In this document: one piece after another, positions 24,768 to 46,600 of the stretch | Position numbering within the stretch: position 1 is the first letter of the stretch | Layout of the letters: every line of letters starts with the position of its first letter | NCBI GenBank assembly: GCA_033344875.1 | Contig: JAWPMO010000001.1 | Coordinates: 372,001-436,000, forward strand | Reading direction: 5' to 3' | DNA: 64,000 bases | Origin: Ilumatobacteraceae bacterium | Lineage (GTDB): Bacteria > Actinomycetota > Acidimicrobiia > Acidimicrobiales > Ilumatobacteraceae | Notes under the pieces: model-generated | Databases searched by the model: none | The model's input: only the letters and a program-made list of their open reading frames with translations | Told to the model about the DNA's origin: nothing | Translations under genes and position numbers: made by a program

Positions 24768-24802
24768 GTTGACTCCTTGAGAACGGTTGATGATGGAACG
24801 GT

Positions 24803-25180: not shown

Positions 25181-25187
25181 CGCGGCG

Positions 25188-25193
25188 ACGATA
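25188..25193 (-). promoter_or_regulatory. -10 hexamer TATCGT of a leaderless gene
   Basis: On the minus strand TATCGT, 7 nt, then the ATG at 25180. Confidence 0.6.
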
Positions 25194-25223
25194 CCGGTGC
25201 ACCGGGGCCGTCAGGGGCGCGGG

Positions 25224-26102: not shown

Positions 26103-26458
26103 GGAGACTCCGGCCCGAGCAGCCGACGCAGCGCTGCGCGATCGCGTCGGTCGAGTCGACTGACAAAGCCACTCAGTGCCTCGGTGCGGTCTCTCGACGA
26201 CGCGAGTTCGGTGCGCATGCGCGACGCGACCAGTTCTGACTCGGTGACCGTGGCGGTGTAGGCGAACGCACGGCCACGTCGCTCCCGGTGGGTGAGGCCC
26301 TTGTCGTGCAGTCGACTCAGCACCGTCATCACCGTGGTGTACGCGAGCTCGCCGTCGATCTGCCCGAGGACGTCGGTCGGGGTCATGGCCGCGCCGTCAC
26401 CGTCCCACAGCACGGCCAAGACTTCTCGCTCCAACGCCCCGTCTGCACGTCGCGCCAT
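26099..26458 (-). CDS. BlaI/MecI/CopY family repressor
   Basis: Winged-helix repressor of 119 residues: ALEREVLAVLWDGDGAAMTPTDVL, then LAYTTVMTVLSRLHDKGLTHRERRGRAFAY, the canonical recognition helix and wing of this family, and a helical dimerisation tail. AGGAGG six nt before the ATG at 26458 fixes the start over the TTG at 26461. It forms an operon with the M56 peptidase and lies back-to-back with the CopC-CopD gene, which it may control. Confidence 0.93.
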   Translation of the reverse strand: MARRADGALEREVLAVLWDGDGAAMTPTDVLGQIDGELAYTTVMTVLSRLHDKGLTHRERRGRAFAYTATVTESELVASRMRTELASSRDRTEALSGFVSRLDRRDRAALRRLLGPESP

Positions 26459-26570
26459 CAATGACCTCCTGTGATCGGCGACGATTGCAGCCTACGCAGC
26501 GACCTTCCGTCGAGCCGGGGAAGTGGGGACCGAACTACGACGATCTGTAGCAGTCGCTGGTCGCTGTCGT

Positions 26571-26576
26571 TAGTGT
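26571..26576 (+). promoter_or_regulatory. -10 hexamer TAGTGT
   Basis: TAGTGT, 9 nt, then the ATG at 26586 of the CopC-CopD gene; no Shine-Dalgarno sequence is present. Confidence 0.5.
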
Positions 26577-26585
26577 GTCGGTTTC

Positions 26586-28082
26586 ATGACAGACCGTCCG
26601 ATCCTTGCGCGGCTGCGCTTGGCGCTCGCCGGCGCGATGGTGCTGTTCGTCGCGGTGTTCGCCGTGCCCGGAACTGCGTCGGCGCACACCGACTTCGACT
26701 CGTCGATGCCCGCCGACGGCAGCACGGTCGAGGGCCCGCTCACGACCGTGACGGTCAACTTCACCAACCCCGCCGTCGAATCGGGCGAGGGCTTCGAGCT
26801 GCTCGGCCCCGACGGAGTGATGCGCGAACCGATCTCGCTCGACCCGACCGACGGCACGACGTTCGTCGCGACGTTCGACCCGCCCCTCGACGCGGGCGAG
26901 TACGGGTTCCGGTGGGATGTGCAGGCCGGCGATGCACACCCGATTCAGGGGTCGTTCCAGTTCACCGTCGTGGTACCGACCACCTCGGAGGAGGCCGTGC
27001 CCGACCCCACGGCGGAGGACGCCGCAACACCCGCGACGACACCCACGACGTCCACAGCGGTCGGCGAGGGCAGCGGCTCGGCCGAACCGGCGTCGCTCGA
27101 CGAGTTCCTGGAGGTCGGGAACGACACCGGTTCCGTCGTCGGCCGGGTCGGGCGCACGATGTCGACGGCCGGGACGATCTTCGCCGCCGGCGTCATCGCC
27201 GCGCTCGTCGCCTTCGTGCGCGGCCGACGCGACGAACTGCGCACCCTCATCGGTTGGGTGCGGCTCGCTGGGCTCGTGATCGTCGCTGGTGCCGTCACCG
27301 AGTTCGCAGCGCTCGACGAGACACAATCGGCGGGAGTGGTCGATGTGCTCGGTACCAAACCGGGAACGGCCACACTCCTCAAGCTCGTCGCCGGGGTGCT
27401 CATCTTCGTCGGGTTCGGCGATCGAGCGGGGAAGGTCGTCGGCGCGCCTCGCGATCTGTCGTCGGCAGCAGCCGTCGAGCTCGATGGGCGCACCGACATG
27501 TCGACCCGAGCCGAGCATCACGCCGACGCCAACTGGACACCGGACTCGACCGCAACGATCGGGCTCGCCGGGCTGGCGCTGGCGCTCGCGTCCTACTGGT
27601 TCGACGGACACACCGTCAGCCGTGGCCCGTGGCTCGTGCATGCGCTCGTGAACCTGGTGCACGTCGGCGCGGCGGCGGTCTGGGTCGGCGGCGTGTTCGC
27701 CATGACGGCGCTCGTGCTCCTGCGACGTCGACGCACCGAACCGACCGGTCTCGCTGCGATGGTCGTCAGGTTCTCCGGCATCGCAGCAGTGTCGCTCGGC
27801 GCGCTCGCCGTGGCCGGCGCGGTGATGACCTGGCTGGTCATCGACGGACCCTCCGACCTGTGGTCGACCGACTGGGGGCAGGTCCTGATCGCCAAGGTCG
27901 CGGTCGTCGCCGTGGCCGCGGGCATGGGTGGCTACAACCACTTTTCGTTGCGGCCGGCGCTCGAGCAGCGGCCCGCGGACCCGGCGGTGGTCAGGCACCT
28001 CCGGATCTCGCTGTCGATCGAGTCGGCGGCGTTGCTCGGGGTGATCCTGCTGACCGCCGTGCTGGTCGGATCTGCCACTTGA
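26586..28082 (+). CDS. CopC-CopD fusion (copper resistance/import protein)
   Basis: 498 residues. Signal peptide ending TASA is followed by mature AHTDFDSS, whose N-terminal His is the copper ligand of CopC; GDAHPIQGSFQF provides the other CopC histidine. After a Thr/Pro linker (about 140-180) comes a CopD-type membrane domain with about eight segments (HALVNLVHVGAAAVWVGG). CopC binds Cu(II) outside and CopD moves copper across the membrane. Its stop codon lies in the -35 of the next gene's promoter. Part of the copper module with CopB and the MerR regulator. Confidence 0.92.
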   Translation: MTDRPILARLRLALAGAMVLFVAVFAVPGTASAHTDFDSSMPADGSTVEGPLTTVTVNFTNPAVESGEGFELLGPDGVMREPISLDPTDGTTFVATFDPPLDAGEYGFRWDVQAGDAHPIQGSFQFTVVVPTTSEEAVPDPTAEDAATPATTPTTSTAVGEGSGSAEPASLDEFLEVGNDTGSVVGRVGRTMSTAGTIFAAGVIAALVAFVRGRRDELRTLIGWVRLAGLVIVAGAVTEFAALDETQSAGVVDVLGTKPGTATLLKLVAGVLIFVGFGDRAGKVVGAPRDLSSAAAVELDGRTDMSTRAEHHADANWTPDSTATIGLAGLALALASYWFDGHTVSRGPWLVHALVNLVHVGAAAVWVGGVFAMTALVLLRRRRTEPTGLAAMVVRFSGIAAVSLGALAVAGAVMTWLVIDGPSDLWSTDWGQVLIAKVAVVAVAAGMGGYNHFSLRPALEQRPADPAVVRHLRISLSIESAALLGVILLTAVLVGSAT

Positions 28083-28110
28083 CCTTCCAGTCGACTGGAA
28101 GGTGTACAAC
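28079..28110 (+). promoter_or_regulatory. MerR/CueR-type promoter-operator of the copper ATPase
   Basis: A perfect 22-bp palindrome at 28082-28103 (ACCTTCCAGTC and its complement) lies between -35 TTGACC (28079) and -10 TACAAC (28105). The spacing is 19-20 bp, longer than normal, the hallmark of MerR-activated promoters. It matches the CueR operator pattern ACCTTCC-N8-GGAAGGT. The transcription start would fall near 28117. Confidence 0.88.
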
Positions 28111-28116
28111 GGGAGC

Positions 28117-30267
28117 ATGACGATGCAAGACACTCATCGTCCGGGTTCCGAACCCGGCGATCACCCGACGGAACACAGCGTGCACGGCCACGACCGACAT
28201 GCCGGCCACGACCAGCACGCGGGGCACGACCACCACCACGACCACCACGACCACCACGACGGCCACGACAAGCACGCCGGCCACGACCCGGAGATGTTCC
28301 GGCGACTCTTCTGGTGGAACGTCGTCCTCGCGATCCCCGTCCTGGTGTTCTCGAAGCAGATCCAGGAGTGGTTCGGGTACTCGATCGACGGGGATTGGGC
28401 GGCGTGGCCCGCGCCACTGATCGGCACGGTCATCTTCGTGTGGGGCGGTCAACCCTTCCTGAAGGGGGCGGTGTCGGAGGTCCGCGACCGACAGCCCGGC
28501 ATGATGCTGCTGATCGCCTTGGCGATCACGGTCGCCTACGTGTCGTCGCTCGCGAGCTCGCTCGGTTGGGGCGACCTGAACTTCTGGTGGGAACTCGCCG
28601 CGCTGATTGTCGTCATGCTGCTCGGGCACTGGCAGGAGATGAAGGCGATCGGGCAGGCACAAGGTGCGCTCGCCGCCTTGGCGGAGCTACTGCCCGACAC
28701 CGCCGAACGAGTCACCGACGTCGGCGTCGAGGACGTCGCGATCGCGGCCCTCGCCGTCGATGACGTCGTGCTCGTGCGGCCGGGCGGCCGGGTGCCCGCC
28801 GACGGCGTGATCGTCGACGGCGAGGCGCACTTCGACGAGTCGATGATCACCGGTGAGAGCCGTTCGGTGCACCGTGGCGACGGCGAGCGGGTCGTCGCCG
28901 GCACCGTCTCGACCGACTCGTCGGTGCGGGTGCGGATCGACGCCGTCGGTGACGACACGGCGCTGGCGGGCATCCAGCGGCTGGTGAGCGATGCGCAGTC
29001 GTCGCAGTCGCGGACGCAGGCGCTGGCCGACCGAGCGGCGGCAGCGCTGTTCTACCTCGCCGCAGGTTCGGCGATCGTCACGATGCTCGTGTGGTCGTTA
29101 CTGGGGGAGCCGTCCGACGGCGTGATCCGCACCGTCACCGTGCTCGTGATCGCCTGCCCCCACGCGCTCGGCCTGGCGATCCCGCTCGTGATCTCGATCT
29201 CGACGGCGAGCGCGGCGAACGCCGGCATCCTCGTGAAGAACCGCTTGGCGCTCGAGCGCATGCGGACCGTCGACGTGGTGCTGTTCGACAAGACCGGCAC
29301 GCTGACCCGAGGCAACCATGCCGTCGTCGATCACGTGGCCGTCGCCGGGGTCGACGCCGACGAGATGCTGGCGCTCGCGGCTGCGGCCGAGTCCGACAGC
29401 GAGCACCCGGTCGCCCGGGCAATCGTCGCTGCCGCCGAAGAACGTGGCCTCGCCGTCGCTGCCGCCGCCGACTTCGCGGCGATCACCGGGCGTGGCGTGA
29501 CGGCGACCGTGAACGGTACGAGCGTGTCGGTCGGCGGCCCGGCGCTGCTCGAACACCTCGACCTGGCCGAACCGGACGAACTCGCCGACACGACCGACCG
29601 GTGGAGCGACGGTGGCGGCTCCGTGCTGTACGTCGTCGCCGACGGCGACGTCATCGGAGCGCTCACCGAAGCCGACGAGATCCGACCCGAATCACGTCTC
29701 GCGGTGGACGACCTCCACGATCGGGGGGTGCGGGTCGCGATGATCACGGGCGACGCACGACAGGTCGCCGACGCGGTGGCCCGCGAGTTGGGCATCGACG
29801 AGGTGTTCGCCCAGGTGCTCCCCGAGGACAAGGACGCCAAGGTCGCCGAACTGCACGACCGCGGCCTCGCTGTCGCGATGGTCGGCGATGGCGTGAACGA
29901 CGCACCGGCCCTTGCCCGTGCCAACGTCGGCATCGCGATCGGCGCCGGCACCGACGTGGCCATCGAGTCCGCCGGTGTGGTGCTCGCATCCAGCGACCCG
30001 CGATCGGTCACCGGTGTGATCGATCTCTCGCGGGCCAGCTACCGCAAGATGCGGCAGAACCTCGTCTGGGCGACCGCCTACAACCTGCTGGCGATCCCGG
30101 TCGCCGCCGGCGTGTTCGAGTTCGCCGGCATCACGATGCCACCCGCTGCGGCGGCCGTGGCGATGAGCCTCTCGACGATCATCGTGGCTGCGAACGCCCA
30201 GCTGCTCAGGCGGCTGGACCTGCGTCCGGCGACACTGCGGAACGGAGGCGATCATGCGGATCGGTGA
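28117..30267 (+). CDS. copB: P1B-type copper-translocating ATPase, CopB (CPH) type
   Basis: 716 residues. The N-terminus is a His-rich tail (about 20-60, runs of His/Asp/Gly) in place of ferredoxin-like metal domains. Eight membrane segments; the sixth carries CPH (ACPHALGLA, about 346), typical of P1B-3 copper/silver pumps, not CPC. DKTGTLT phosphorylation site near 391, [10 protein letters not shown], and [12 protein letters not shown] are intact. ATG at 28117 coincides with the predicted start of transcription, so it may be leaderless; ATG 28123 has GGGAG before it. It overlaps the MerR gene by 14 nt. Exports copper from the cytoplasm. Confidence 0.93.
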
Positions 30268-30661
30268 ACTCGCATCGCAGGCGGGGGTCAGTACGAAGAC
30301 GATTCGCTACTACGAGTCGATCGGCCTGCTCGACGAGCCGGAGCGGACCCCGTCGGGCTATCGCGACTACACGGAGGAGGCCGTCGACCGGCTCGGCTTC
30401 ATCCGGGACGCCCAGGCGAGCGGCCTCACGTTGGCCGAGATCACATCGGTCATCGAACTCAAGAGCGCCGGGGAATCGACCTGCGAGCACACGCGCGACC
30501 TCCTCCAACGCCATCTCGCCGACCTCGATGCCCAGATCATGCGGCTGCAGGCGACACGCGACCAGATCGCGCAGTTGACGAGCAGGGCCGAACAGCTCGA
30601 TCCCGTCGACTGTGTCGACGACCAGCGGTGCCAGGTCATCGCCACCGGAACCGGCACGTAG
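30254..30661 (+). CDS. MerR family metal-responsive regulator (CueR/ZntR-like)
   Basis: 135 residues: winged helix [21 protein letters not shown], a long dimerisation helix, and a C-terminal metal loop with DCVDDQRC (Cys120 and Cys126). A further Cys at 77 (STCEHT) lies where copper sensors have Ser and divalent-metal sensors have Cys, so ligand choice is open. AGGCG before the ATG; it overlaps the ATPase end. It should bind the palindrome at 28082-28103 and activate the operon it is part of. Confidence 0.92.
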   Translation: MRIGELASQAGVSTKTIRYYESIGLLDEPERTPSGYRDYTEEAVDRLGFIRDAQASGLTLAEITSVIELKSAGESTCEHTRDLLQRHLADLDAQIMRLQATRDQIAQLTSRAEQLDPVDCVDDQRCQVIATGTGT

Positions 30662-33494: not shown

Positions 33495-33534
33495 ACCCGC
33501 ATTCACACCACGGCACGCCTCGGTGTTGCCGGGG

Positions 33535-33565
33535 CGAACGGAGCGAACCGGGTTCGCTCCGTTCG
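33535..33565 (-). terminator. Hairpin, likely the ancestral terminator of tRNA-Pro
   Basis: Perfect 15-bp inverted repeat (CGAACGGAGCGAACC and its complement) around one base. It sits 14 nt left of the att repeat, exactly where the leftward-reading tRNA-Pro would have ended before the element inserted. Confidence 0.55.
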
Positions 33566-33578
33566 GCGGCGTCGAGTC

Positions 33579-33623
33579 GTCGGGATGGGGAGATTCGAAC
33601 TCCCGACCCCCTGCTCCCAAAGC
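33579..33623 (+). repeat. attL: 45-bp direct repeat, 3' part of tRNA-Pro
   Basis: 45 bases identical to 49427-49471. They comprise the discriminator, acceptor 3' strand, T arm, variable loop and anticodon loop of tRNA-Pro on the minus strand. The D arm is absent, so this copy is a scar of site-specific insertion. Confidence 0.93.
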
Positions 33624-33652
33624 CGAAAATGACCAACATCAGCCAGTTTCGA

Positions 33653-33866
33653 GATGTATCAATCGATGCCGAAATGTGTCAATGAACTGGGGTGATGCGC
33701 GGACGGGCTGACACCGTCCGGACCGGTTGAAACAGCCTGGCGCACCCTGGATTGATACATCTCTGATACATCGATTTCGTCGTCAGCGACGTCTGCGACC
33801 CCCTGCACGGCCAGATCGGGACGCGGCCTCGCGGCTCGCGATGTATCAGATTGCATCGATGTATCA
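33653..33866. repeat. Left-end cluster of TGATACATC repeats (candidate integrase arm sites)
   Basis: Copies of TGATACATC or its complement GATGTATCA: 33653-33661 (-), 33753-33761 (+), 33764-33772 (+), 33840-33848 (-), 33858-33866 (-). The two plus-strand copies are 11 bp apart. The 321 bases from 33624 to 33944 contain no gene; these repeats are their main content. Confidence 0.75.
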
Positions 33867-33944
33867 GATCCGTCGGCGCGACCGCCTGTCAGATGGCGGG
33901 TTCGCCGAGTCGACCAGTCGGGCTGACCTACCAATCGACTCGGC

Positions 33945-34496
33945 TCAGCTGTCGGGTCGATGAAGCCCTCGGCGGAGTTCGTTGAGTTCGGGGAGAGCCT
34001 CGCGGTCCTTCGCTCTGTCGGCGCTGATCTTCGATTCGATGATGTCGTCGAGCGAGGCGACGGGAATGCGCAACTCGCCCGTCGGGGCGAACGTGGCACG
34101 CGCTCGAAGCGTGTCGTATGAGACTGATTCGCCGGCCGCATCGGGGATGCCGCTCAGGAAGTCGACGCTGCCGCTGTCAGTTCGCCAGGTCGAGGCAGCG
34201 GTCCGAGCGAAGAAGTCCGGATGCAACAGTTGCTGGGACAGTTCGACTGCTGCCGCGTCGTCGACACCTTCGATTCGCAGGCGCGGGTTGCCCATCTGTC
34301 TGAGTGCGTCGCAGACCCGTCGGTGATTCTCGACTGTCTGGTGGGCCACGCAATCAACATCTCGGGTCGCACGTTGGGCACCCCACAGAATCGCCGCGCT
34401 GCCGCCGACGACGACGTACTCGACGCCGTGATCGTCGAGCGCCTGGAAGATCTTCGTCTCGTCGAGCTCGCCGTACTCGTCGGCCGGTTCGGTCAC
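33945..34496 (-). CDS. Nucleotidyltransferase-fold protein (AbiEii/DUF6036-like)
   Basis: 183 residues. The segment YVVVGGSAAILWGAQRATRDVDCV has the GG-S and D-x-D layout of the nucleotidyltransferase superfamily found in AbiEii, MNT and DUF6036 proteins. Later SLDDIIESKISADRAKDREAL matches the helical part of that group. Its ATG overlaps the stop of the XRE gene upstream (four bases), so the two are one unit, the layout of type IV or MNT-like toxin-antitoxin and anti-phage pairs. Which partner is toxic cannot be told from sequence. Confidence 0.75.
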   Translation of the reverse strand: MTEPADEYGELDETKIFQALDDHGVEYVVVGGSAAILWGAQRATRDVDCVAHQTVENHRRVCDALRQMGNPRLRIEGVDDAAAVELSQQLLHPDFFARTAASTWRTDSGSVDFLSGIPDAAGESVSYDTLRARATFAPTGELRIPVASLDDIIESKISADRAKDREALPELNELRRGLHRPDS

Positions 34497-34849
34497 GTCG
34501 CCAGGAGGCCCTCATCGCGGAGTTCAGCTGCGAACGCTTCGAGGTCGGCAGCGGTTCGCAACTCCCGGCCGTCGTTCGTCCGCGTGACATCGTCGGCCGT
34601 TGGGCCTTCTTGGGCTTCGAACCGGTGGCCGATCGCTTCTCGCGACGCGGGCAGTCCAACCGGCTGGGCCCGGAGTTCTCGGCCGCACGCGTGGAGCAGT
34701 CGGTTCAACGTCTCAACGCCAGGGTCGACCAACCCGTTCTCGTACCTCGAGATGGTCGGCTTCGAGCTGCCCGCGCGCTCAGCGAGCTCGGCCATCGTCA
34801 GGCCAGCGGCTTGCCTGGCCTCCCGAATCAGCTCTGCTGCCACGCCCAT
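34493..34849 (-). CDS. XRE-family helix-turn-helix regulator (antitoxin-like)
   Basis: 118 residues: IREARQAAGLTMAELAERAGSSKPTISRYENGLVDP is a standard Cro/C1 HTH. The C-terminal 50 residues are charged and could contact the partner. The ATG at 34849 has TAACAT six nt upstream (minus strand), suggesting a leaderless autoregulated operon. It overlaps the nucleotidyltransferase gene by four bases. Together with that gene it likely forms an addiction or defence module of the element. Confidence 0.85.
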   Translation of the reverse strand: MGVAAELIREARQAAGLTMAELAERAGSSKPTISRYENGLVDPGVETLNRLLHACGRELRAQPVGLPASREAIGHRFEAQEGPTADDVTRTNDGRELRTAADLEAFAAELRDEGLLAT

Positions 34850-34957
34850 GATGGGATGTTATCAGATCACACAACCGCCGGGTCGTTGCGGGGCTGAAGG
34901 GTCGACCGGTCAGTTCTCGGTCGAGCTTTCCGAACCCGGGAACTGGAAGGCCACGAC

Positions 34958-34963
34958 TAACGT
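34958..34963 (+). promoter_or_regulatory. -10 hexamer TAACGT of the serpin gene
   Basis: TAACGT, 7 nt, then GTG at 34971; it decides the start codon. No Shine-Dalgarno sequence is seen. Confidence 0.65.
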
Positions 34964-34970
34964 CAAAATC

Positions 34971-36332
34971 GTGATGCGCAGACGTATGGGAATCGGAGTG
35001 CTCGCTGCCATGGTGCTCGTCGCAGCCTGTGGAGGCGACGACGTCGCGGATCGAACGCCTGAGTCGGTTGCCGATTCGCACCCGGACGGGCCGGCTGATG
35101 AGCAGTCCACGGTCGTAACGACCGAGCCCTCTGAAGACATATCTGACGAAGCGTTGCCGCTGCGGTTCGGTGCGTTGTCAGAGCGGTCGGTCGATGGTGG
35201 AGCGGATGGTCGGAACGCGACGGCAGCCATCGCAGGGATGAACGAGTTCGCCGTCGACCTCTATCGCGTCGTGGCCGCCGACGAAGCTGGAAACACGGTG
35301 GTGAGCCCGTACAGCGTCACCTTCGCGCTCGGGATGATCTACGCGGGCGCCCGAGGGCAGACCGCAACGGAGATGGCTGACGTCCTCCACGTTGGCGACC
35401 TGGAACCGGAAGCGTGGCACGAAGGCATCAACGCGTACGACCTCACGTTGGATGCACGCACGGTCGGAAGCCCCACGGTGTGGACCGCTGCCAACAAAGT
35501 GTGGACGAAGCCGGGTCTCGCGTTGCTCGACGACTACCTGGACGTGCTGACCGGCGCGTACGGCTCGCCTCTGGCGGAGGCTGACTTCGGTGCCGACCCA
35601 GAGGCGATGCGCAATCTGGTCAACGGCTGGGTCGAGGAACGAACGAACGACCTGATCCCAGAGCTGTTCCCGCCTGCGTCGTTCGACGGGTCGACGCAGA
35701 TGGTGTTGGTCAATGCCGTTGCGCTGGATGCGCCATGGGAGTTTCCGTTCGATCCGGCAGCGACGCGCACGGAGCCGTTCACGCGCGCCGACGGCTCGAC
35801 GGTGAACGTACCGATGATGCACTACGACGAGTTCCTGCCGTCGGCGTGGACGGAGGACGCCCTGGCGGTGGAGGTGCCCTATGGAGGTGGTGCACTGTCG
35901 ATGGTGGTCATCGTCCCGAACGACCTCGCTGCATTCGAATCCGAGTTGACGACCGAGTCACTCGCTGCGGTGATCGATGGCATCACCGACGGCGGTATCC
36001 ATCTGTCATTGCCGAAGTGGACCGCTCGCACCCACGTACAACTCAACGACGTTCTGACCGGGTTGGGTATGCCGGCAGCGTTCGGTGGCGGCGCTGACTT
36101 CTCCGGCATGACGGAGGGTGGCGGACTCTTCCTCGACCAGGTCGAACACGAAGCGGTCGTCGAGGTCGACGAGCAAGGCACACGCGCCGCCGCCGCGACC
36201 GGAGGTGAGATGGCGGACTCGCACGGACCCACGATCGAGGTCAACCGCCCCTTCCTGTACCTGATCCGTGACCGAGGCGCAGGAACGATCCTCTTCATCG
36301 GTCGCGTCACCGACCCGGCCGTGGTTCCCTGA
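34971..36332 (+). CDS. Serpin-family lipoprotein (serine/cysteine protease inhibitor)
   Basis: 453 residues. Signal peptide with lipobox LVAAC, a linker of about 50 residues, then a full serpin domain: NEFAVDLYRVV, VVSPYSVTFALGMIYAGARGQT, and the C-terminal NRPFLYLIRDRGAGTILFIGRVTDP. The reactive-centre loop hinge VDEQGTRAAAAT (about 398-409) follows the E-x-G-T-x-A-A-A-A-T rule of inhibitory serpins, and GGEMADSHGP is the likely cleavage region. It should trap a serine or cysteine protease at the cell surface. The GTG start follows from the -10. A serpin on a mobile element is unusual. Confidence 0.93.
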   Translation: MMRRRMGIGVLAAMVLVAACGGDDVADRTPESVADSHPDGPADEQSTVVTTEPSEDISDEALPLRFGALSERSVDGGADGRNATAAIAGMNEFAVDLYRVVAADEAGNTVVSPYSVTFALGMIYAGARGQTATEMADVLHVGDLEPEAWHEGINAYDLTLDARTVGSPTVWTAANKVWTKPGLALLDDYLDVLTGAYGSPLAEADFGADPEAMRNLVNGWVEERTNDLIPELFPPASFDGSTQMVLVNAVALDAPWEFPFDPAATRTEPFTRADGSTVNVPMMHYDEFLPSAWTEDALAVEVPYGGGALSMVVIVPNDLAAFESELTTESLAAVIDGITDGGIHLSLPKWTARTHVQLNDVLTGLGMPAAFGGGADFSGMTEGGGLFLDQVEHEAVVEVDEQGTRAAAATGGEMADSHGPTIEVNRPFLYLIRDRGAGTILFIGRVTDPAVVP

Positions 36333-36397
36333 AGAACGGGTTGGACCAGGCACTGGGCGGACGGTGAACTCCGGTCCCTGGAAGAAGCGTGCGTCCG

Positions 36398-36703
36398 TCA
36401 ACTTGACCGCGAGAACGCCACGGTGACCTTCAGATCCAACGCTCCGGCGACCTTCTGGAGGCTCGTGAGCGTCGCGCCGGTTCCCCCGGCTTCGAGTCGA
36501 GCGACGGCGGCTTGGCTCGTCCCCATCCGTGCTGCCAGCTCGCGTTGAGTGAGGCCGGCCGCTTCTCGGGCGGTGCGCACTTGGTCGCCGACCTCGATGG
36601 CGAGTCGCGTGGCGTCGTAGGTCTGATCGAACTCGGCTCGCTCGTCGGCGGTCAGAGCGGCGAGGTGTCGTCGCTTCACGTCATCAATCGTTGTTTGCTT
36701 CAT
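36398..36703 (-). CDS. XRE-family HTH protein (HigA-like antitoxin type)
   Basis: 101 residues. TAREAAGLTQRELAARMGTSQAAVARLEAGG is a Cro/C1 HTH, and ALDLKVTVAFSR is the C-terminal beta strand of HigA/RelB-associated regulators. AGGAGG lies upstream of ATG 36703 at good spacing. No toxin gene accompanies it: the neighbouring frames do not look like RelE or HigB, so it may be solitary or its partner was lost. Confidence 0.8.
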   Translation of the reverse strand: MKQTTIDDVKRRHLAALTADERAEFDQTYDATRLAIEVGDQVRTAREAAGLTQRELAARMGTSQAAVARLEAGGTGATLTSLQKVAGALDLKVTVAFSRSS

Positions 36704-36832
36704 CAGAAGTCCTCCTCGATCGGGTCGAAAGTTCAACGGACCGGTTGACATCAAAGATGATGTCACGTGCTGCGAGGCGTTCGCAGGATTGTCATGCAAC
36801 GAAAGCGGCGGTCGTGGTGCTTTCACGTCGTG

Positions 36833-37177
36833 ATGGACTCTGCTCGATGTGACCGTTGTGGGAGCGCCGGCCTCGCGCCGGATCTGCTCACCGTCGCCGA
36901 GGTCGTCGTCGTCCTGCGGATCAGCCGGACGAAGGTCTACGAACTCGCCGCTGAGTGGCGGACGACCGACGGTCACTCTGGCATTCGGTCGGCCTTCGTC
37001 GGTGGACAGATCCGATTCCCACGGCTCGCGATCGAGGAGATCGTCGGCGGACCACTGACATGGCCTCCGGTCATCGTCGACGCGTTCGCTGACGATCCCG
37101 ACCCGACAGCCCGGCCAACGCTGACCGGACCGACGGCCGCCCGTCGCGCCGCACCTCGCCGACTCCGCCAGGTCTGA
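36833..37177 (+). CDS. Excisionase-like HTH protein
   Basis: About 114 residues. LLTVAEVVVVLRISRTKVYELA matches the winged-helix start of MerR-like excisionases, followed by a basic and Pro-rich tail. CDRCGSAG near the N-terminus might bind zinc. The start is uncertain: no ribosome site or leaderless hexamer is clear, and GTG 36767 is also in frame. Excisionases sharply direct integrases to excise, which fits this place inside the element. Confidence 0.6.
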   Translation: MDSARCDRCGSAGLAPDLLTVAEVVVVLRISRTKVYELAAEWRTTDGHSGIRSAFVGGQIRFPRLAIEEIVGGPLTWPPVIVDAFADDPDPTARPTLTGPTAARRAAPRRLRQV

Positions 37178-37256
37178 GGCCTCCCATGCACGACACCTCA
37201 CGTCAACCATCACACTTCAAGAACAGACAAGTGCCCGCGGGCGGGGGAGGGGCGCC
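37178..37256 (+). other. Gap before the relaxase gene, possible oriT region
   Basis: 79 bases between the excisionase-like gene and the relaxase, ending in a ribosome site (GGGGGAGGGG). It contains a small palindrome CCCGCGGG. Relaxase genes often have their oriT just upstream, but no known nic motif is recognised here. Confidence 0.3.
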
Positions 37257-40200
37257 GTGCTGCGGGTGACGACGCTCTACGCATCATCGGCTGCGGCGTC
37301 GGCCGGCTACTACACGCAGTACCTGACCGACGCGCCCGGCGAGCAGCCCGGCATCTGGTGCGGCAGGCAGGCCGACCTGCTCGGGCTCGGCGGCCCGGTG
37401 AACGGCGAACAGCTGCAGGCGCTACTCGAGGGCCGTGACCCAGTTTCTGGGACACCGCTCGGGATGTCGCTCGTCGACCGGGTGACAAAAGATGGCGGCA
37501 CGGTGCGCGCCGTCGCTGGGTTCGATGCGACGTTCTCGGCGCCGAAGTCGGTGAGTGTGCTGTGGGCGCTCACCTGTGACGCCGGCTACCTCGAAGCGCA
37601 CGACGCCGCGGTGACCGCAGCGCTCGGTTACCTGGAACGGTTCGGATCGACCACCAGGATCCGATCGAACGGTCGCCGGCTGCACCCTGACTCGCAGGGC
37701 TTGATCATGGCGACATTCCGTCAGTCGACGTCACGGGCCGACGACCCACAACTCCACACCCACGCCGTCATCTCAGCAAAGGTCCAAACCGCTGAGGGCC
37801 GATGGCTCGCACTCGACGCCCGGTTCCTCAAGAAGCACCAGCGGATGCTCGGTGGCCTCTATCAGTCGGTGTTGCGATCGGAACTCGCCAACCGCTTCGG
37901 GGTCGCGTGGCAGCCGATCGAGAACGGGCAGGCCGAGATCGCCGGCATGCCAGCACAACTGTTGGAGCAGTTCTCGAAGCGCACCGTCGAGGTCGAGCAC
38001 GCGCTCGACGACAAGCTCGACGACTTCCGCCAACGGGAGGGACGCGACCCGACCAGCATCGAACGAGCAGCACTCACACGCCAAGCCGCCGTCGACACCC
38101 GCAGCCGCAAGACGGGTCACGGTGTCCCGGATCTGCAGACACGGTGGCAACGCGAGGCCAACCGTCTCGGGTGGTCCGCCGAAGATGTCGATCGCCTCGT
38201 GTCGAAGCCGAGCCTCGATGAAGCACATGCACCGGCTGTCACCGTCGCCGGTGTCGTCGATCAGCTCTCCGCTCGCGGGTCGACGTGGGCGCGAGCCGAC
38301 GTCATGCGCACGATCTGTGATCTCCAACCGGCTGTGCCGAACATGTCAGCCGACCGATGGCTCGCCGCACTCGAACGAGCGAGTGACCGGATCATCGACG
38401 AGTGCGCTCAACTCGACCCGGAGGTCATGAACCGTCAACGAGCGTCCGACGGTCGATCGGAGTGGCTCGAACCGATCGCAGCGAATCTGACGTCCGACAT
38501 GATCCTCGACGAGGAAGCCCGCGTATTCGCGTGGGCGCTCGACGCCGAGATTAACCAGCCGCAACCATCGGACACCGTCGACACGACCGGGCTCGACGTA
38601 CTCCAAGCCGACGTCGCAGCAGCAGTCGCCGGCCACGACCGGCTCGTCCTCGCCGTCGGGCCGGCAGGGACCGGCAAGACCACCACCCTGCGAGCCGCCG
38701 CCAACGACATCTGGCGAGCCGACCGCATCGTGTTCGGCCTCGCACCATCTGCCAAAGCAGCTCGCGTACTCGAACGCGAGACCGGCATCCCCTCGGACAC
38801 CGTCCACAAGCTCCTGTACGAACATCTCCAAACCGAGCGGCCGCCGAACGCCCGCTACCAACTCCCACCCGGAGCGACCGTCATCGTCGACGAAGCCGGC
38901 ATGCTCGGAACCGCCAGCCTCGCCCAGCTCGCAGCGCTGGCCGAGCAGCACCGGTGGCGAGTCGTGCTGATCGGCGACCCACACCAGCTCCAAGCGGTCG
39001 GACGCGGCGGCATGTTCCACGAACTCTGCGCGACCGGCCGCACGCTCGAACTCCAGAAGATCCACCGGTTCACGAACGCTTGGGAGGCCGCCGCGTCCCT
39101 CCAACTGCGACACGGCGATCCCGACGCGATCGACACCTACATCGACCAAGGCCGCATCTGTGCCGGCCCCTTCGACGAGCACATCGACGCCATCGCCGGC
39201 GCCTGGATGTTCTTCGACGGCAACGGCGACTCAGTCGCGATCACAGCATCGACGAACGAGCACGTCGACCGAATCAACCAAGCCATCCAGCGTCGCCGGT
39301 TCGCCGGCCACCGAATCGACCCAGCCGACACGGCCGTCATCGCCGACGGCGCCATCGCCCACGTAGGCGACCGTGTCGTCACACGACGGAACGACCGGAC
39401 ACTCACCACCACGACCGGTGAACCGGTCCGCAACCGCGACCACTGGACCGTGTCGGCAATTCACCCCGACGGATCGATGACCGTTGACTCTCAGCTGGAT
39501 GCAGGAACGGTCACACTGCCGGTCGAGTACGTACATCAGCACGTTCAACTCGGCTACGCCGCCACCGAACACGGCAACCAAGGCGACACCGTCACCATCG
39601 GCATCGAACTCGCCACCCCAGCCACCAGCCGACGCGGCCTCTACGTCGGCGCCACGCGAGGTCGAACGCTCAACATGATCCACGTCGTCACCGAAACCAG
39701 CGACCGTGAGGAAGCGAGGTCGGTCCTGCGCGGAATCCTGGCCAACGACCGAGTGGACCTCCCAGCGCTCGCCCAGCGCCGAGAGCTCGCGCAGGCGGTT
39801 CCTGCGACATCACCGTCAACCATCCAGCCGAGGTGTGAGATCCCGCCGTGGTTCAACGACGTTCGACAACGCCTCGTCGACGAGATGAACGACTCGATTC
39901 GCGCGATCGAAGCCCGCAATGCCGATCGAGCACTTCGTCGAGAGGCAGCCGACGAGGCCCGCGACCTGCTTCCGGCCGCAGCCGCGGATGCCGGCCCGTT
40001 CGAAGCGGCCGCTCGTGCCGCAAGCGACGACCGCTACGACGCATGGCGCGATGTCGAGGCGGCGACGCAAGTCGCGGGCGCGGCGGGCCCGCTCCACAGA
40101 AGGAGAGATCGGGCAGCGCTGGCCGACGCCAAACTGCGCCTCGACCGGGCCGAGCAAGCCGTTGCGAGTGCGGAAGAACGGGCCCGGCCAACTCGAGAAC

Positions 40201-40718
40201 GAGTGAACGCCCTTCGTCAAACGATCAAAGACGAGTACGACCGCACGGGCGACATCCTGCACCAGTGGGCCGACCATGACGGGCGCATCGACCGCTCACG
40301 GCGGACCGTTGAAGCACTCGATACCTGGCAGCACTGGGCAGCCGGCGACGATCTCGCACTCGACCAAGTCGTCGCAACGCTTGAAGTGCTTCGCAGTGAG
40401 CGCGACAGCCTCCTCGCAAGTCTCGGAGAAGAACTGAACCTGTGGCTCCAGACTCAGCCCCAGGCAGTCCAGTCGAACGTGCGCATCAGCATCGTCTGGC
40501 AAAGGCTCCAGAGATTGAGTTGCCGGGGTGACTGGACGACTTCCGCTGCGGGCCAGGTGTGCATCGCGCCGGGATCATCTCGTGTCCCGGTCGGGCCGAA
40601 CTCGGTCACCCTTCGCCTGCTCGGCCGGGTGATTGAGTGTCCAAGTTGTGTGGCTGGCCGGAGCGTGAGGGGTGCGCGCGTGGGTCCGTTGGGACGCGAT
40701 CAGCCAGCCGGTGGTTAG
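37257..40718 (+). CDS. MobF-family relaxase with helicase domain (TrwC/TraA-like)
   Basis: 1153 residues. N-terminal TrwC relaxase domain with paired Tyr (AGYYTQYL, Tyr18/19) and the metal-binding His (HTHAVIS, near 167-171). A helicase domain has Walker A GPAGTGKTTT (near 467), Walker B VIVDEAGML and GDPHQLQAV. The last 250 residues are coiled-coil-like and then poorly structured. Nicks oriT and unwinds DNA for conjugative transfer. GTG start with a strong ribosome site. Its stop overlaps the stop of the convergent membrane protein by four bases. Confidence 0.95.
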   Translation: MLRVTTLYASSAAASAGYYTQYLTDAPGEQPGIWCGRQADLLGLGGPVNGEQLQALLEGRDPVSGTPLGMSLVDRVTKDGGTVRAVAGFDATFSAPKSVSVLWALTCDAGYLEAHDAAVTAALGYLERFGSTTRIRSNGRRLHPDSQGLIMATFRQSTSRADDPQLHTHAVISAKVQTAEGRWLALDARFLKKHQRMLGGLYQSVLRSELANRFGVAWQPIENGQAEIAGMPAQLLEQFSKRTVEVEHALDDKLDDFRQREGRDPTSIERAALTRQAAVDTRSRKTGHGVPDLQTRWQREANRLGWSAEDVDRLVSKPSLDEAHAPAVTVAGVVDQLSARGSTWARADVMRTICDLQPAVPNMSADRWLAALERASDRIIDECAQLDPEVMNRQRASDGRSEWLEPIAANLTSDMILDEEARVFAWALDAEINQPQPSDTVDTTGLDVLQADVAAAVAGHDRLVLAVGPAGTGKTTTLRAAANDIWRADRIVFGLAPSAKAARVLERETGIPSDTVHKLLYEHLQTERPPNARYQLPPGATVIVDEAGMLGTASLAQLAALAEQHRWRVVLIGDPHQLQAVGRGGMFHELCATGRTLELQKIHRFTNAWEAAASLQLRHGDPDAIDTYIDQGRICAGPFDEHIDAIAGAWMFFDGNGDSVAITASTNEHVDRINQAIQRRRFAGHRIDPADTAVIADGAIAHVGDRVVTRRNDRTLTTTTGEPVRNRDHWTVSAIHPDGSMTVDSQLDAGTVTLPVEYVHQHVQLGYAATEHGNQGDTVTIGIELATPATSRRGLYVGATRGRTLNMIHVVTETSDREEARSVLRGILANDRVDLPALAQRRELAQAVPATSPSTIQPRCEIPPWFNDVRQRLVDEMNDSIRAIEARNADRALRREAADEARDLLPAAAADAGPFEAAARAASDDRYDAWRDVEAATQVAGAAGPLHRRRDRAALADAKLRLDRAEQAVASAEERARPTRERVNALRQTIKDEYDRTGDILHQWADHDGRIDRSRRTVEALDTWQHWAAGDDLALDQVVATLEVLRSERDSLLASLGEELNLWLQTQPQAVQSNVRISIVWQRLQRLSCRGDWTTSAAGQVCIAPGSSRVPVGPNSVTLRLLGRVIECPSCVAGRSVRGARVGPLGRDQPAGG

Positions 40719-42445
40719 CGCTCGAACGGCTCGAGTGCCGCAACGATGGTTCGTAGGCCATCCGGGCTGCGGTAGGGAAGCTCGGGTGTCGGCGGGCTGA
40801 GGCAGTTGTAGCAGAAGGCAGGGTTCACCCTGATGTAGAGGTCATCGACCTCGACGGTCGCCATCCACACGTTCGGCTCGCCAGCGGGGCACTCTCCGGA
40901 CGTGAGTTCGCCCCACCCATCACGCATTCCGTCGGCGGGTGGGCTGAAGAACTCGTCGGGGATGTGTCGACCGAGCAGCAGCGACGTGCCGGGGCCTTCG
41001 ATGGGTTCGGTCACGGTGCACGGGGAGTCAAACAGCTCGGCGGTCACGGCGAGCATCTGGTCGGGTTCACTTCCAGATGGCACCGCGGAGAGATCAAACA
41101 CTTGGATCCGGGCGCCGTCGTAGTCGAGATCGACCATCCCGTCTTGGGTGTACGACCTATACAGCTCCATCGGCGGGAACCCGGGCGGCATGAACGCCCC
41201 ACCGACCCACCACGGGATGAACGTTGCTTGTTCGAGACCGACCAAACGGTCTTCGTCGATGCCGTCTGGAACAGCGACCGGGCGAAGCATCCGCTCGTGC
41301 TGGACGCCGGCCAAGCGAGCGGCCTCGACCGCTGCGCCCGATGAGCTGTCGAATTGCAGCACCGAGACGGCGCCGACCAACGTCCCGGCACGCCAGCCGT
41401 GCACCGCGGATGTGTCGGTTGCGGACGCTGCACCTATTGCCTCGGCACCGGGACCGACCGCTTCTGCAAGCGTGCCGATCGGGTCCGCGTTGCAGCAGTC
41501 GAGCCCGTAGTAGCGGATCACACCGGCAAACCCGTCGGCCGTCAGAGCCCGGACAGCGAGTTCCTCGGAGGGGAACGACAAGACCAAGCTGTTGACGAAC
41601 GTCTCGGGCGCCTCGAGTTGGATGAAGCAGCTCTCGATCGCCCCGCCGGCTTCCACAACGAGATCGAGAAACGCGTCGCTGTCGCCCTCGGTGCCCAGCC
41701 CGCCACCGCAGTGACTGTCATCGCCGATCGTGGCCCCGTCCGGGCCGTCGGGGAGATGCAGGATCATTCCCGACATCAACTCAACATCTACAGCGTCTGG
41801 TGTTGATCGAGGGTCTGAATCCGCCTCGTCTCCGCGGCCAGGTCCCGCTCGGAGTGATGCGACGAATCGGTCGAGTTCATCGCGATCGAATCCGGTAGCG
41901 ACCACCATCGCGAACGCATCATCGAACACAGACGTGTACCGAGCCTGGTCGTCAGTGATCTCCACGAACCATTCGACCCCGCCCATGACCCGGAGTTCAC
42001 CCGCAGGATCCATCTGATCGACGTTGCCGAAACCGACGACCACGCCACCATCAGCACCAACACTTGGATCCCGAAACCGTTGACTCAAGTTGCCATCAGT
42101 GACCTCGGTCGCGTCAATGACCCAACCGTCAGGCACGTCGGTCGCGACAACGTTCTGTCCCTCAACGATCGACCCCAACGGCAACAACTCAACCGGCGAC
42201 GTTGTCGCTGTAACCGTCGTCGATGGTGGGCCCGCCGGAGCGGATTCGCCGTCGCGTGCAACGACCGCGAGCACAACCACGAGCCCTCCAATCAGCGCCA
42301 CGGTCACTGCGGCCACCAGTCCGACACGAACCCGCCGCCTCCGCGACAGGTCTTCCCCGGCAGCGGCCATCGCGTCGTCGACCACCGACTCAGGATCGCG
42401 AAACGGTCCTCGCTGTGCGAGACGTTCCAGCTCATCAACGATCAT
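40715..42445 (-). CDS. Membrane-anchored protein with large external domain, partner of ECF sigma factor (anti-sigma-like)
   Basis: 576 residues. A short cytoplasmic N-terminus (about 40 residues, helical) is followed by one membrane segment (VGLVAAVTVALIGGLVVVLAVV) and a long external part with several Cys pairs (CCNADP, CYNCLSPP). The start overlaps the ECF sigma gene by four bases. The sigma-plus-single-span partner order is that of anti-sigma factors. No ZAS domain was seen, so the anti-sigma role is inference; the external domain matches no family I know. Confidence 0.7.
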   Translation of the reverse strand: MIVDELERLAQRGPFRDPESVVDDAMAAAGEDLSRRRRVRVGLVAAVTVALIGGLVVVLAVVARDGESAPAGPPSTTVTATTSPVELLPLGSIVEGQNVVATDVPDGWVIDATEVTDGNLSQRFRDPSVGADGGVVVGFGNVDQMDPAGELRVMGGVEWFVEITDDQARYTSVFDDAFAMVVATGFDRDELDRFVASLRAGPGRGDEADSDPRSTPDAVDVELMSGMILHLPDGPDGATIGDDSHCGGGLGTEGDSDAFLDLVVEAGGAIESCFIQLEAPETFVNSLVLSFPSEELAVRALTADGFAGVIRYYGLDCCNADPIGTLAEAVGPGAEAIGAASATDTSAVHGWRAGTLVGAVSVLQFDSSSGAAVEAARLAGVQHERMLRPVAVPDGIDEDRLVGLEQATFIPWWVGGAFMPPGFPPMELYRSYTQDGMVDLDYDGARIQVFDLSAVPSGSEPDQMLAVTAELFDSPCTVTEPIEGPGTSLLLGRHIPDEFFSPPADGMRDGWGELTSGECPAGEPNVWMATVEVDDLYIRVNPAFCYNCLSPPTPELPYRSPDGLRTIVAALEPFER

Positions 42446-42924
42446 GGCGTGACCCCCTCGTGAAGACGAAGTTCCCGGCGGGCACGAGCAGCGATCTGCC
42501 GTACCGCAGGCGAACGAAGATCGAGCAGTGCGGCGATCTGCTCGAAACTGCGACCCTCGACGTAGTGCATGAACAACACGGCCCTGGACCGCGGATCAAG
42601 CTTCGTGAGATGGGAAAGATCCGACGGATACGCATCGCGAGCGCTCTGTGCGTCGATTTCAGCCCGCACTCGAACGAGTGCCAAGCGCCGACGACCGAGG
42701 CGACGACGCTCGTTCGCTGCCCGGTTCACGATCGATCGACGCAGGTACGCCTCGACGTCATCGACCTGAGCGAAGCGGTCACCGCTCAACGCAGTGACGA
42801 TCACATCGTGGACCAGATCGTCCGGCGACATGTCGGGCGAACCCACAACCGCCGCGAATCGGCGCAGCGACGGGTACACGGCCAACAGCCGCTCCCGTTC
42901 TGCACTCCGCGTCAAGCCCTGCAT
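42442..42924 (-). CDS. ECF-type sigma factor (sigma-70 family)
   Basis: 160 residues with region 2 (SPDDLVHDVIVTALSGDR, YLRRSIVNRAANERRR) and region 4 (LDPRSRAVLFMHYVEGRSFEQIAALLDL). This is a small ECF or SigE-like factor. It is cotranscribed with the membrane partner through a four-base overlap. ATG 42924 or GTG 42927; neither has a clear ribosome site. Mobile elements seldom carry both a sigma factor and its partner; it may drive the element's lipoprotein genes. Confidence 0.88.
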   Translation of the reverse strand: MQGLTRSAERERLLAVYPSLRRFAAVVGSPDMSPDDLVHDVIVTALSGDRFAQVDDVEAYLRRSIVNRAANERRRLGRRRLALVRVRAEIDAQSARDAYPSDLSHLTKLDPRSRAVLFMHYVEGRSFEQIAALLDLRSPAVRQIAARARRELRLHEGVTP

Positions 42925-43180
42925 CACTACTCAAGACACCGCACAGCCCCCGATCGTGACACCAAATCATGATCGCCGCGCACAGCCTGGAGAATCGGAG
43001 TCCCGGCACATCCGCTCAGGAACACTCAAGTTCCCCCGGCTACAAGGCCAACGGCTGCCGCCAGTTCGGCGAGGCGAGCGTGATTTCCGGGCACCACAGT
43101 TGGGCCGAAGCGTGCGGGTCATCCCGGAACCGACGACGGATTGTCGGGCGGCGATACCGAGCGGTTTGGACGATGGTCCA
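42925..43180. other. Intergenic, no gene seen
   Basis: 256 bases between the sigma factor start and the 43181 gene. No reading frame with homology and no repeat or hairpin stood out; it must hold the sigma operon promoter on the minus strand. Confidence 0.4.
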
Positions 43181-43633
43181 ATGCTTGCGGAGCGCGCCAA
43201 GATCGGGCAATCTGCTCGGGTGCCGGACCCAAACAACTACTGGCTGACGGTCTACGCCGAACCACCGCTCGATCGTTTGGAACGGCTGCCAGACGACGCC
43301 GTGTTCGCCTGGCTCAATCGCGAGATGCACCGTGTCGGGTCGAAGATCGACTGGACCCGTTTCGCAGATTCTCGTCGTCATTGGTTTGTGTCGTCGGCCG
43401 ACGAACTACGGGCAGTGCTGGACGAATTCCTTGCGGCTCTGCCCGCCGGGGACCACGTCGACCACGGTGGAGATGCGTTGTCGCCGTTCGACGTACGCAT
43501 CGAAGGTGCGGAGCTCGCCAGCGTTGTCCAGGCTCTGCTCGCGATTCCTGAGCACCACTACTTCGTCGCGGCGGACCGCTCGTGGGTTGCTGCATTCACG
43601 ATGGAAGGCGACGTCGACCTCGCGTTCCTGTGA
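43181..43633 (+). CDS. Hypothetical protein, immunity-protein-like size
   Basis: 150 residues, acidic, no signal peptide. Segment WFVSSADELRAVLDEFLAAL and repeated Trp-rich stretches suggest an alpha/beta fold. Not recognised. The ATG at 43181 is a choice among two (GTG 43220), with no ribosome site. It stands alone inside the element. Confidence 0.55.
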   Translation: MLAERAKIGQSARVPDPNNYWLTVYAEPPLDRLERLPDDAVFAWLNREMHRVGSKIDWTRFADSRRHWFVSSADELRAVLDEFLAALPAGDHVDHGGDALSPFDVRIEGAELASVVQALLAIPEHHYFVAADRSWVAAFTMEGDVDLAFL

Positions 43634-43728
43634 GCGCTTCCGAACTGCCCATGTGCGCTTCTCCTCGCGGGACGAATCGGCGACGCGGCCGAGTGATTAC
43701 CGGGTGCGCTGCTCGGGCCGAAGCGTGC

Positions 43729-43785
43729 GGGTAGCGAGAGCCCGACCGGCGGGCTACGGCGCTCGCGCTATGTGCGTCGCTACCC
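43729..43785 (+). other. Long inverted repeat between cargo genes
   Basis: Outer arms GGGTAGCGA (43729-43737) and TCGCTACCC (43777-43785) enclose an inner AGCCCG/CGGGCT stem. It could form an extended hairpin, a terminator for the upstream gene or a structural element. Function not established. Confidence 0.4.
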
Positions 43786-43872
43786 GAACTGTTGTTGCGC
43801 GCGTGTGCCGGATCCCGAGCGGGTTGCTGCGGTCCTCCTGGGCGATGATCCGCATGCCTTCGATCAGATGCG

Positions 43873-43878
43873 TAGCGT
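43873..43878 (+). promoter_or_regulatory. -10 hexamer TAGCGT of a leaderless lipoprotein gene
   Basis: TAGCGT, 7 nt, then GTG at 43886; this gives a protein beginning directly with a lipoprotein signal. Confidence 0.65.
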
Positions 43879-43885
43879 GGATTCG

Positions 43886-44497
43886 GTGAGAGTGGCCGTC
43901 GGAGTGGCGTTGACCCTGATGCTCATCGGCTGTGGGGACGGAACGGATCGGCCCGACTCGGACATATCGCCGGATCCACCCACAGGAACGAACGAGGAGG
44001 ACGAGCCGTGGCCAACCTTGCCGGACGGACCGCCCGACACGTCCGCCACAGCGTTGGCCGCGCTCGACGTGCTGCGGGAATCCTGGGTGTGGGACGAGAT
44101 GGGCGCGCCCGAGGACGCCAAAGTGTTGTTCCACCAAGTCGACGATCAGATCGCTCTGATCACGTTCCGGGTTGACCCAGAAATCTCGTTCGAGGGCTGG
44201 TTGCCGAATCATGTCGCCGCTGACGTTCCCGTGTACAACATCGGTCTCCCACGTCCGAACCGGCCCGATTGCTCGTTCCAATACGACGGCGGAGAACAGC
44301 GTGTCGCACGGGTCTACCCATATGTGATCGAGATCGGCATCACGTTTGCCGCTGTCGTGAATCTGGCCGACGGTTGCGTGGCCAGCATCGATTTCCCAGA
44401 GCCTCCGAAACCGAACGCCGACCCCCAGCGTGGCGACTTCACAGTCCGTTACAGCAATGGCTACGAGAGCGAGGAGCCGACCGGACCCGGCGACTGA
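43886..44497 (+). CDS. Small lipoprotein of unknown function
   Basis: 203 residues. Signal RVAVGVALTLMLIGC ends in a lipobox Cys; then an acidic linker and a beta-rich domain. The start at 43886 was set by the -10 hexamer and gives a compact signal peptide, whereas the longer frame from 43772 would add 38 unhydrophobic residues. No family recognised. Cargo of the tRNA-Pro element. Confidence 0.7.
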   Translation: MRVAVGVALTLMLIGCGDGTDRPDSDISPDPPTGTNEEDEPWPTLPDGPPDTSATALAALDVLRESWVWDEMGAPEDAKVLFHQVDDQIALITFRVDPEISFEGWLPNHVAADVPVYNIGLPRPNRPDCSFQYDGGEQRVARVYPYVIEIGITFAAVVNLADGCVASIDFPEPPKPNADPQRGDFTVRYSNGYESEEPTGPGD

Positions 44498-44524
44498 CAA
44501 GGGTCGAGGGGCACCGTCTGGGAT

Positions 44525-45892: not shown

Positions 45893-46029
45893 CTGACGTC
45901 CGACGATACGCCGTTGTTCCCGAACGACCGCAGGACCATCGGGTCGGGTCGTCGTCACCCACCACTGTCGATATGCGCTGTGAGTATCACCTGGCCGGTC
46001 GGCTGAGGTCGGCCAGGGTGGGTGCCGGC

Positions 46030-46473: not shown

Positions 46474-46480
46474 AGCTGTC

Positions 46481-46486
46481 ACGGTA
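46481..46486 (-). promoter_or_regulatory. -10 hexamer TACCGT of a leaderless lipoprotein gene
   Basis: TACCGT on the minus strand, 7 nt, then ATG at 46473. Confidence 0.6.
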
Positions 46487-46600
46487 TCCGTCAGAGCTCG
46501 CGATGATGCCGGGGCTGCCGGGGACTACTCGCAGTACGGACGTAGTCTGCATCGGCTCAGATCCGGCACACCGATCGGTCGCTCGCACCCACGCGATAAT

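Follow-up and report, generated by a model that had tools for sequence, protein, structure and literature searches.

The serpin gene at 34971-36332 of the window (the whole 64-kb stretch of DNA analysed) probably encodes a lipid-anchored inhibitory serpin and belongs to the cargo of an integrative mobilizable element inserted at a tRNA-Pro gene. The parts of this reading that can be read from the sequence are the complete serpin domain, the lipobox, the hinge, the loop length, the element boundaries, the foreign composition and the absence of this serpin type from the nine other genus genomes. The best reading of the protein is that of a membrane-tethered suicide inhibitor, with its inhibition, its target and its ecological role as predictions that build on these features.

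The predicted lipoprotein serpin and its reactive loop

The gene is real, as had been claimed, and its frame is intact: the Serpin family PF00079 matches it end to end (residues 90-449 out of 453 in the frame, against profile positions 3-370 of 370; E 8.4e-96), and the C-terminal serpin strands are complete, in agreement with the original prediction. The start claimed at 34971 is a GTG codon one codon upstream of an ATG at 34974; we counted 452 residues from this ATG and the residue numbers given here follow this count. A whole-genome Pfam serpin search in the genome of the organism (4.97 Mb, a single contig) returned the window gene as the only match. The N-terminus from the ATG, MRRRMGIGVLAAMVLVAAC, reads by eye as a lipoprotein signal with the lipobox VAAC at Cys19, which upholds the lipobox noted earlier, and the same pattern is present in all six relatives checked (L166, L167, L121, L102, L101 and L098, of which L121 is a fragment at a contig end with the loop outside it). 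Actinobacteria are taken to be monoderm, and the anchor would therefore fix the serpin to the cytoplasmic membrane from the outside. The location on the cell surface that had been suggested thus stands as far as the predicted outward-facing lipid anchor is concerned, but exposure at the surface is not implied by it.

An AlphaFold2 model built from eight aligned rows has the serpin fold (mean pLDDT 77.5, pTM 0.74), with a linker after the signal that is of low confidence (pLDDT <50 up to residue 77). Residues 402-415 appear as a strand, which corresponds to the relaxed state, and the three top PDB matches of the model are cleaved, loop-inserted serpins (1hle, Z 43.8; MENT, Z 43.7 and 43.4), with cleaved miropin of Tannerella forsythia close behind (5ncw, Z 42.4; 5ncu, Z 41.9). 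AlphaFold2 often draws serpins in this inserted or relaxed state. The model shows that the hinge can be placed in sheet A and says nothing on actual inhibition.

By sequence, the best PDB match is conserpin (5cdx and 5cdz, E 1e-56), which we take to be a designed consensus serpin; the third PDB match is 8gxv, annotated as 'Proteinase inhibitor I4 serpin'. The hinge of the window serpin features Thr at P14, Ala at P12 and P10 and Thr at P8, with small residues from P12 to P9 as in inhibitors, and an Arg at P13 where Glu is usual. In the alignment its loop, TGGEMADSHGPTIEVNRPF, equals the conserpin loop, TGVEIVPRSPPEFKADRPF, in length, with 15 residues from P8 to the R-P-F of the distal strand, and the distance from the hinge to P1 is about 17 residues as in conserpin, a criterion for inhibitory serpins. 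From the equal loop length P1 is assigned to Ser416 and P1' to His417; the scissile bond may also lie one residue earlier, after Asp415. In contrast to the window serpin, conserpin has no lipid anchor, and its P1 according to the alignment is presumably Arg (VPR/SPP), whereas the window serpin has a Ser in ADS/HGP. The corresponding loop segment in most other acidimicrobial serpins collected has 18-21 residues and is of the type AVVMxxTSAP; the Ser at P1 and the Gly residues at P7 and P6 are unusual compared with the Ala-Val-Val that is common in the other serpins collected. A Ser at P1 would suit proteases that accept small residues. The full domain, the hinge EQGTRAAAAT and the conserpin-like loop length agree with the inhibitory type that had been predicted from the sequence, and we regard the window serpin as a good candidate inhibitor.

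The residues from P1 to P4', Ser-His-Gly-Pro-Thr (SHGPT), are invariant in all seven clade members with a readable loop, the window serpin included. The short loop and SHGPT are shared with six other pieces (L098, L101, L102, L166, L167 and L171), and these six only were found when the 92 collected serpin pieces, which include loci fetched twice and of which 85 (duplicates included) reach residue 420, were scanned for the motif. Among the five full members, two of which are ≈40% identical to the window serpin, 85 of 366 domain columns are invariant; SHGPT is the longest invariant run and exceeds the AAAA of the hinge; P7-P2 vary in the same five proteins. Members with the invariant P1-P4' block come from at least three families. 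Serpin reactive loops usually diverge fast, and the invariance of this block therefore points to one constant partner.

The integrative element at tRNA-Pro

The location on a mobile element that had been predicted was confirmed by a perfect 45-bp repeat, an integrase gene beside the tRNA gene and a TrwC relaxase gene inside (Table 1). The element comprises 15.8 kb (33579-49471) at tRNA-Pro(TGG) and the serpin gene is situated just inside attL, after a nucleotidyltransferase gene and an XRE gene (33945-34849) that are a possible toxin-antitoxin pair, type IV-like, with the nucleotidyltransferase as the toxin. The 64-kb window contains five exact copies of TGATACATCG, each of them within ≈300 bp of an att site; those at the left end are probably integrase arm sites. 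The relaxase-helicase presumably belongs to class MobF. The possible anti-sigma protein has CU044_5270 as its sole match, below cut-off, and the element also encodes putative lipoproteins. Its GC content is 65.1%, whereas the flanks have 68.3-69.5% (the first 14.4 kb of the window 67.4%), and the GC3 values of the 12 element genes measured (0.69-0.85; serpin 0.775) compare with 0.85-0.92 in 13 outside genes. A Pfam scan of 15 frames of the element did not detect any type IV secretion family, and we therefore call the element mobilizable; it looks like an integrative mobilizable element that is not self-transmissible.

Table 1 Features of the serpin gene and of the element in the window
Feature	Position	Strand	Basis or remark
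attL, exact 45-bp copy of the tRNA-Pro 3' half	33579-33623		exact repeat scan
left-end TGATACATCG copies, one exact on +, two exact on -	33753-33870		probable integrase arm sites, by inference
DUF6036/AbiEii-like nucleotidyltransferase	33945-34496	-	Pfam PF19502 E 2e-8, over cut-off; PF08843 below cut-off
XRE regulator, possible antitoxin	34493-34849	-	Pfam HTH_3 E 4e-16
lipoprotein serpin, 452 aa	34974-36332	+	Pfam E 8e-96, fold model, PDB matches
lipoprotein signal peptide and lipobox V-A-A-Cys19	34974-35030	+	sequence
RCL hinge P17-P8, EQGTRAAAAT	36171-36200	+	alignment to conserpin 5cdx; relatives
reactive centre P1-P4', Ser-His-Gly-Pro-Thr, residues 416-420 (predicted)	36219-36233	+	invariant in clade
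XRE/HipB-like regulator	36398-36721	-	HTH_3 E 9e-13 on the longer frame 36398-37213; NCBIfam HipB-type below cut-off
HTH_17 excisionase-like protein	36767-37177	+	PF12728 E 4e-6; TIGR01764 below cut-off
TrwC relaxase-helicase	37257-40718	+	PF08751 E 3e-74, AAA_30 E 5e-55
ECF sigma factor (42442-42927) and downstream protein (40715-42445), possible anti-sigma	40715-42927	-	sigma-70 families
IS110-family insertion sequence, transposase 46868-48019	46634-48157	+	Pfam; identical copy in sister element
tyrosine integrase	48202-49341	-	PF00589 E 5e-20
right-end TGATACATCG direct repeat, two exact copies on +	49360-49380		exact-copy search
tRNA-Pro(TGG), intact; attR is its 3' half (49427-49471)	49427-49501	-	ARAGORN

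To the right of tRNA-Pro the DNA is conserved in six of the eight genus genomes whose tRNA region was fetched (G001, G002, G003, G004, G007 and G009). The left flank of the window was not found beside tRNA-Pro in any genome examined: on this side either another sequence is present or the region is out of view (the contig of G009 ends there), and an empty site was thus not directly observed. A near-perfect palindrome just outside attL (33534-33567), with 12 other copies in the genome among the matches listed, belongs to a dispersed repeat or terminator family. Elsewhere in the window, a second tyrosine integrase gene (14973-17254) lies beside tRNA-Gly(TCC) together with a Mutator-family transposase fragment and marks an older or a second island end, and ARAGORN reports overlapping tRNA-Gly and tRNA-Ile genes on opposite strands at 19203-19312, of which at least one is probably false. 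Left of the element, a copper-type cluster (24303-30661) comprises cupredoxin, CopC-CopD, P-type ATPase and MerR genes, and the DNA of its ATPase region has a 76% identical stretch near C1:3904000-3907000 of the same genome.

The same genome harbours a second element at tRNA-Ala (G000:C1:3090615 to 3106984) with an exact att repeat of 52 bp. Its HTH_17 protein, relaxase and integrase are 45%, 56% and 88% identical to those of the window element, respectively, and the IS110 copies of both elements are 100% identical over 1524 bp. At the position of the serpin gene, the sister element has two unassigned frames together with genes for a TIGR04255 protein and a nucleotidyltransferase of the Polbeta type (the latter below cut-off), and the serpin thus occupies a variable cargo slot. 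Looking for the gene on related elements, as had been proposed, has shown other cargo in this slot of the sister element. Like the window element, the sister element begins with a nucleotidyltransferase gene (the Polbeta-type one, below cut-off), and the stretch that covers it (L088, G000:C1:3088500-3108400) contains two further tyrosine recombinase genes at 10382-12426. A genus relative without a serpin match, G003 (L068, L069), has two exact copies of the 45-bp att sequence and a 92% identical integrase; we interpret this locus as a relative of the window element that carries different cargo and may be present in tandem.

Distribution, relatives and origin of the serpin

Serpins occur sporadically, as had been expected: any serpin was found in 22 of 100 genomes, the window's included (3/10 in the genus, 19/61 in the family and 3/39 elsewhere in the order). 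None of the nine other genus genomes has the window serpin type, which speaks against a fixed chromosomal gene of the genus, also in line with the original prediction; the other genus serpins (G002, G007) belong to a different lineage with 32-34% identity. At class level a match to the window serpin at E 1e-30 is found in 74 of 395 sampled genomes, one of them being that of the window itself. When the closest relative, with the loop left out, was used as query for a phylum-wide sample of 396 genomes at E 1e-70, the window's genome alone matched; G460 and G451 were not among the matches and are evidently missing from that sample.

The nearest kin are 67-72% identical, two of them from another family and one unplaced. 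This other family of the order contributes G460 (69%), G451 (67%) and a broken copy in G475 (59-71% over pieces), and 12 of its 39 genomes match at 1e-40. L098, from an Acidimicrobiales MAG of unstated family, has a serpin of 71% identity, and G132 a serpin fragment of 65% identity at a contig end. The same cut-off of 1e-40 is reached by 12 of 50 genomes in the family of G319, and among the loops seen there SHGPT is present in G319 only. The reading frames of the SHGPT serpins in L098 (10001-11313) and L181 (4038-5206) are broken, by decay or by assembly error.

A tree calculated without the loop columns from 76 pieces and the window serpin (15 pieces were dropped as duplicates, broken fragments or, in one case, L022, plus one of less than 300 residues) groups the window serpin with G460 and G451 (support 100/98) and with L102 (100/85). 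Strict monophyly of SHGPT is not supported, as a Bacteroides row on a long branch and without SHGPT (L099) nests among the SHGPT rows (93/72). The tree alone is compatible with a serpin that may have been present anciently and was lost many times. The tree grouping together with the location on the element and the composition favours a horizontal gain of the serpin gene by the element, and the most likely donor is a lineage of Acidimicrobiia outside the family.

In the neighbourhoods of 27 other serpin genes (20 of the 21 other serpin genomes, with G035 left out, and seven clade loci; stretches of 6.5-21 kb, several of them whole short contigs) no matching tyrosine integrase, relaxase or IS110 was detected. 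The integrase profile used was built from five integrases only and does not reach serine recombinases and remote families; as a positive control, the same scan recovers both window integrases and divergent ones. Within the reach of that scan, the serpin is thus not normally an element gene and looks like occasional cargo rather than a standing gene of such elements. The neighbours in L098 are, judging from their sequences, presumably recR, ybaB, dnaX-like and fusA-like genes, and the locus also has an HNH/DUF222 gene. The serpin gene of L180 is located near genes for a biotin carboxylase and an ABC transporter, and that of L179 adjoins a second serpin gene, which is divergent, with genes of the ArsC and RecC types in the vicinity; the context of L154 is known from the integrase, relaxase and IS110 scan alone. 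Note that the two adjoining serpins of L179 (2558-5478, genome G460) are of different lineages and lie on opposite strands.

Serpin-like genes are present in 108 plasmid records. The Sphingobium MOBQ plasmid pCFD-2-6, which is typed as mobilizable, has a serpin gene near its relaxase gene with two genes between them and is a precedent for serpin cargo on mobile DNA; its serpin is 33% identical, and it is a replicating plasmid, in contrast to the integrated tRNA element of the window. A viral origin was considered and rejected. The serpin query alone found no relative on viral contigs, and a profile found four distant serpins on viral contigs (L184-L187; 28-36%), none of them with SHGPT in the alignment. 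A phage collection yielded two records only (MT835510.1 and MT835777.1, phages from human faeces; 30-33%), and none of the 23 viral stretches that matched a DNA pattern of the hinge encodes a serpin according to tblastn.

Predicted function and significance

In the mechanism that we propose, export and lipidation would leave the serpin tethered to the cytoplasmic membrane from the outside. Once a serine (or cysteine) protease cuts the loop after Ser416, the hinge would insert into sheet A and the protease would be trapped covalently, with the invariant SHGPT at P1-P4' presumably selecting one conserved target class; the element itself would have acquired the gene horizontally. Miropin, a bacterial inhibitory serpin, has a loop that presumably differs from that of the window serpin. 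It is described in PMC4404884 as likely preventing damage by secreted serine proteases, whereas no such protease is linked to the window serpin. Chloropin of Chlorobium limicola is, according to PMC10090351, a bacterial serpin with the canonical fold that acts by suicide inhibition and inhibits thrombin and KLK7; its P1 is Arg383 as compared to the predicted Ser416 of the window serpin.

The conserved motif would also fit a docking site, and the protein could have the serpin fold without inhibitory activity, as a binding or structural lipoprotein whose loop motif is conserved because it binds a partner rather than because it baits a protease. The invariance of SHGPT next to a variable P7-P2 segment, the Gly-Gly at the start of the loop and the Arg at P13 are consistent with this. 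Spence et al. 2021 (PMC8233489) describe a Streptomyces clade that deviates in breach and shutter and is suspected to be non-inhibitory, even though many of its members keep the hinge. However, Thr at P14, Ala at P12 and P10, Thr at P8 and the conserpin-like loop length are all inhibitor-like, and we consider a non-inhibitory protein unlikely. That the gene is decaying cargo on its way to loss is very improbable: the frames of its kin in L098 and G475 are broken, but these two come from MAG or draft assemblies, in which errors are possible, and the frame in the window is intact.

Different roles would be compatible with a membrane-tethered inhibitor. The serpin may restrain an envelope or secreted protease of the cell itself, with the copy on the element adding dosage or protecting during transfer, a role that we put forward tentatively as a reasonable possibility. 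The membrane tether and the invariance of P1-P4' across members of at least three families argue for it; no partner protease is linked, though, and seven of the ten genus genomes (some of them incomplete) are without any serpin, so that the cell would have to be able to do without such a target or would seldom need to regulate it. The original prediction had instead proposed defence against the proteases of predators, hosts or competitors. The outward-facing anchor and the sporadic distribution (22/100 genomes) would suit such a protection of the cell, but nothing was found in its support. No linked protease or secretion gene was detected, and no protease or defence system was recognised either in the element or in a scan of ten proteins encoded next to kin genes; the only defence-like genes are the toxin-antitoxin-like pair, and PADLOC matched in the element only the helix-turn-helix of its two XRE proteins. 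The annotated neighbours of kin genes resemble ordinary metabolic or repair genes, and the literature found with serpin and predation terms does not mention a serpin among the matches listed. An arms race with predators or hosts is less in keeping with an invariant reactive centre than is a constant target, and a defensive role appears rather doubtful. The constant target is perhaps an extracytoplasmic protease of the organism itself or one that is common in the community. At its most far-reaching, this line of thought would make the SHGPT serpins a dedicated membrane-tethered lineage with a reactive centre frozen against a single conserved extracytoplasmic protease, spread among the Acidimicrobiia by mobile elements as immunity; we regard this as speculative.

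Serpin-like genes on plasmids and membrane-anchored prokaryotic serpins were known before, the latter according to PMC8233489. New in this study are the SHGPT lineage and the finding that an integrative mobilizable element carries a member of it, neither of which was seen among the matches listed from the open literature: the combination of 'SHGPT' and 'serpin' retrieved nothing there, and one of the matches for serpin, relaxase and integrase (PMC8190616) concerned an author's name and not the protein. What selects for bacterial serpins is stated as an open question in PMC8233489. A small lineage with a reactive centre that is fixed from P1 to P4' makes this question testable, as it provides one bait sequence with which the protease can be fished, and the location on an integrative element shows that mobile DNA can carry the serpin trait.
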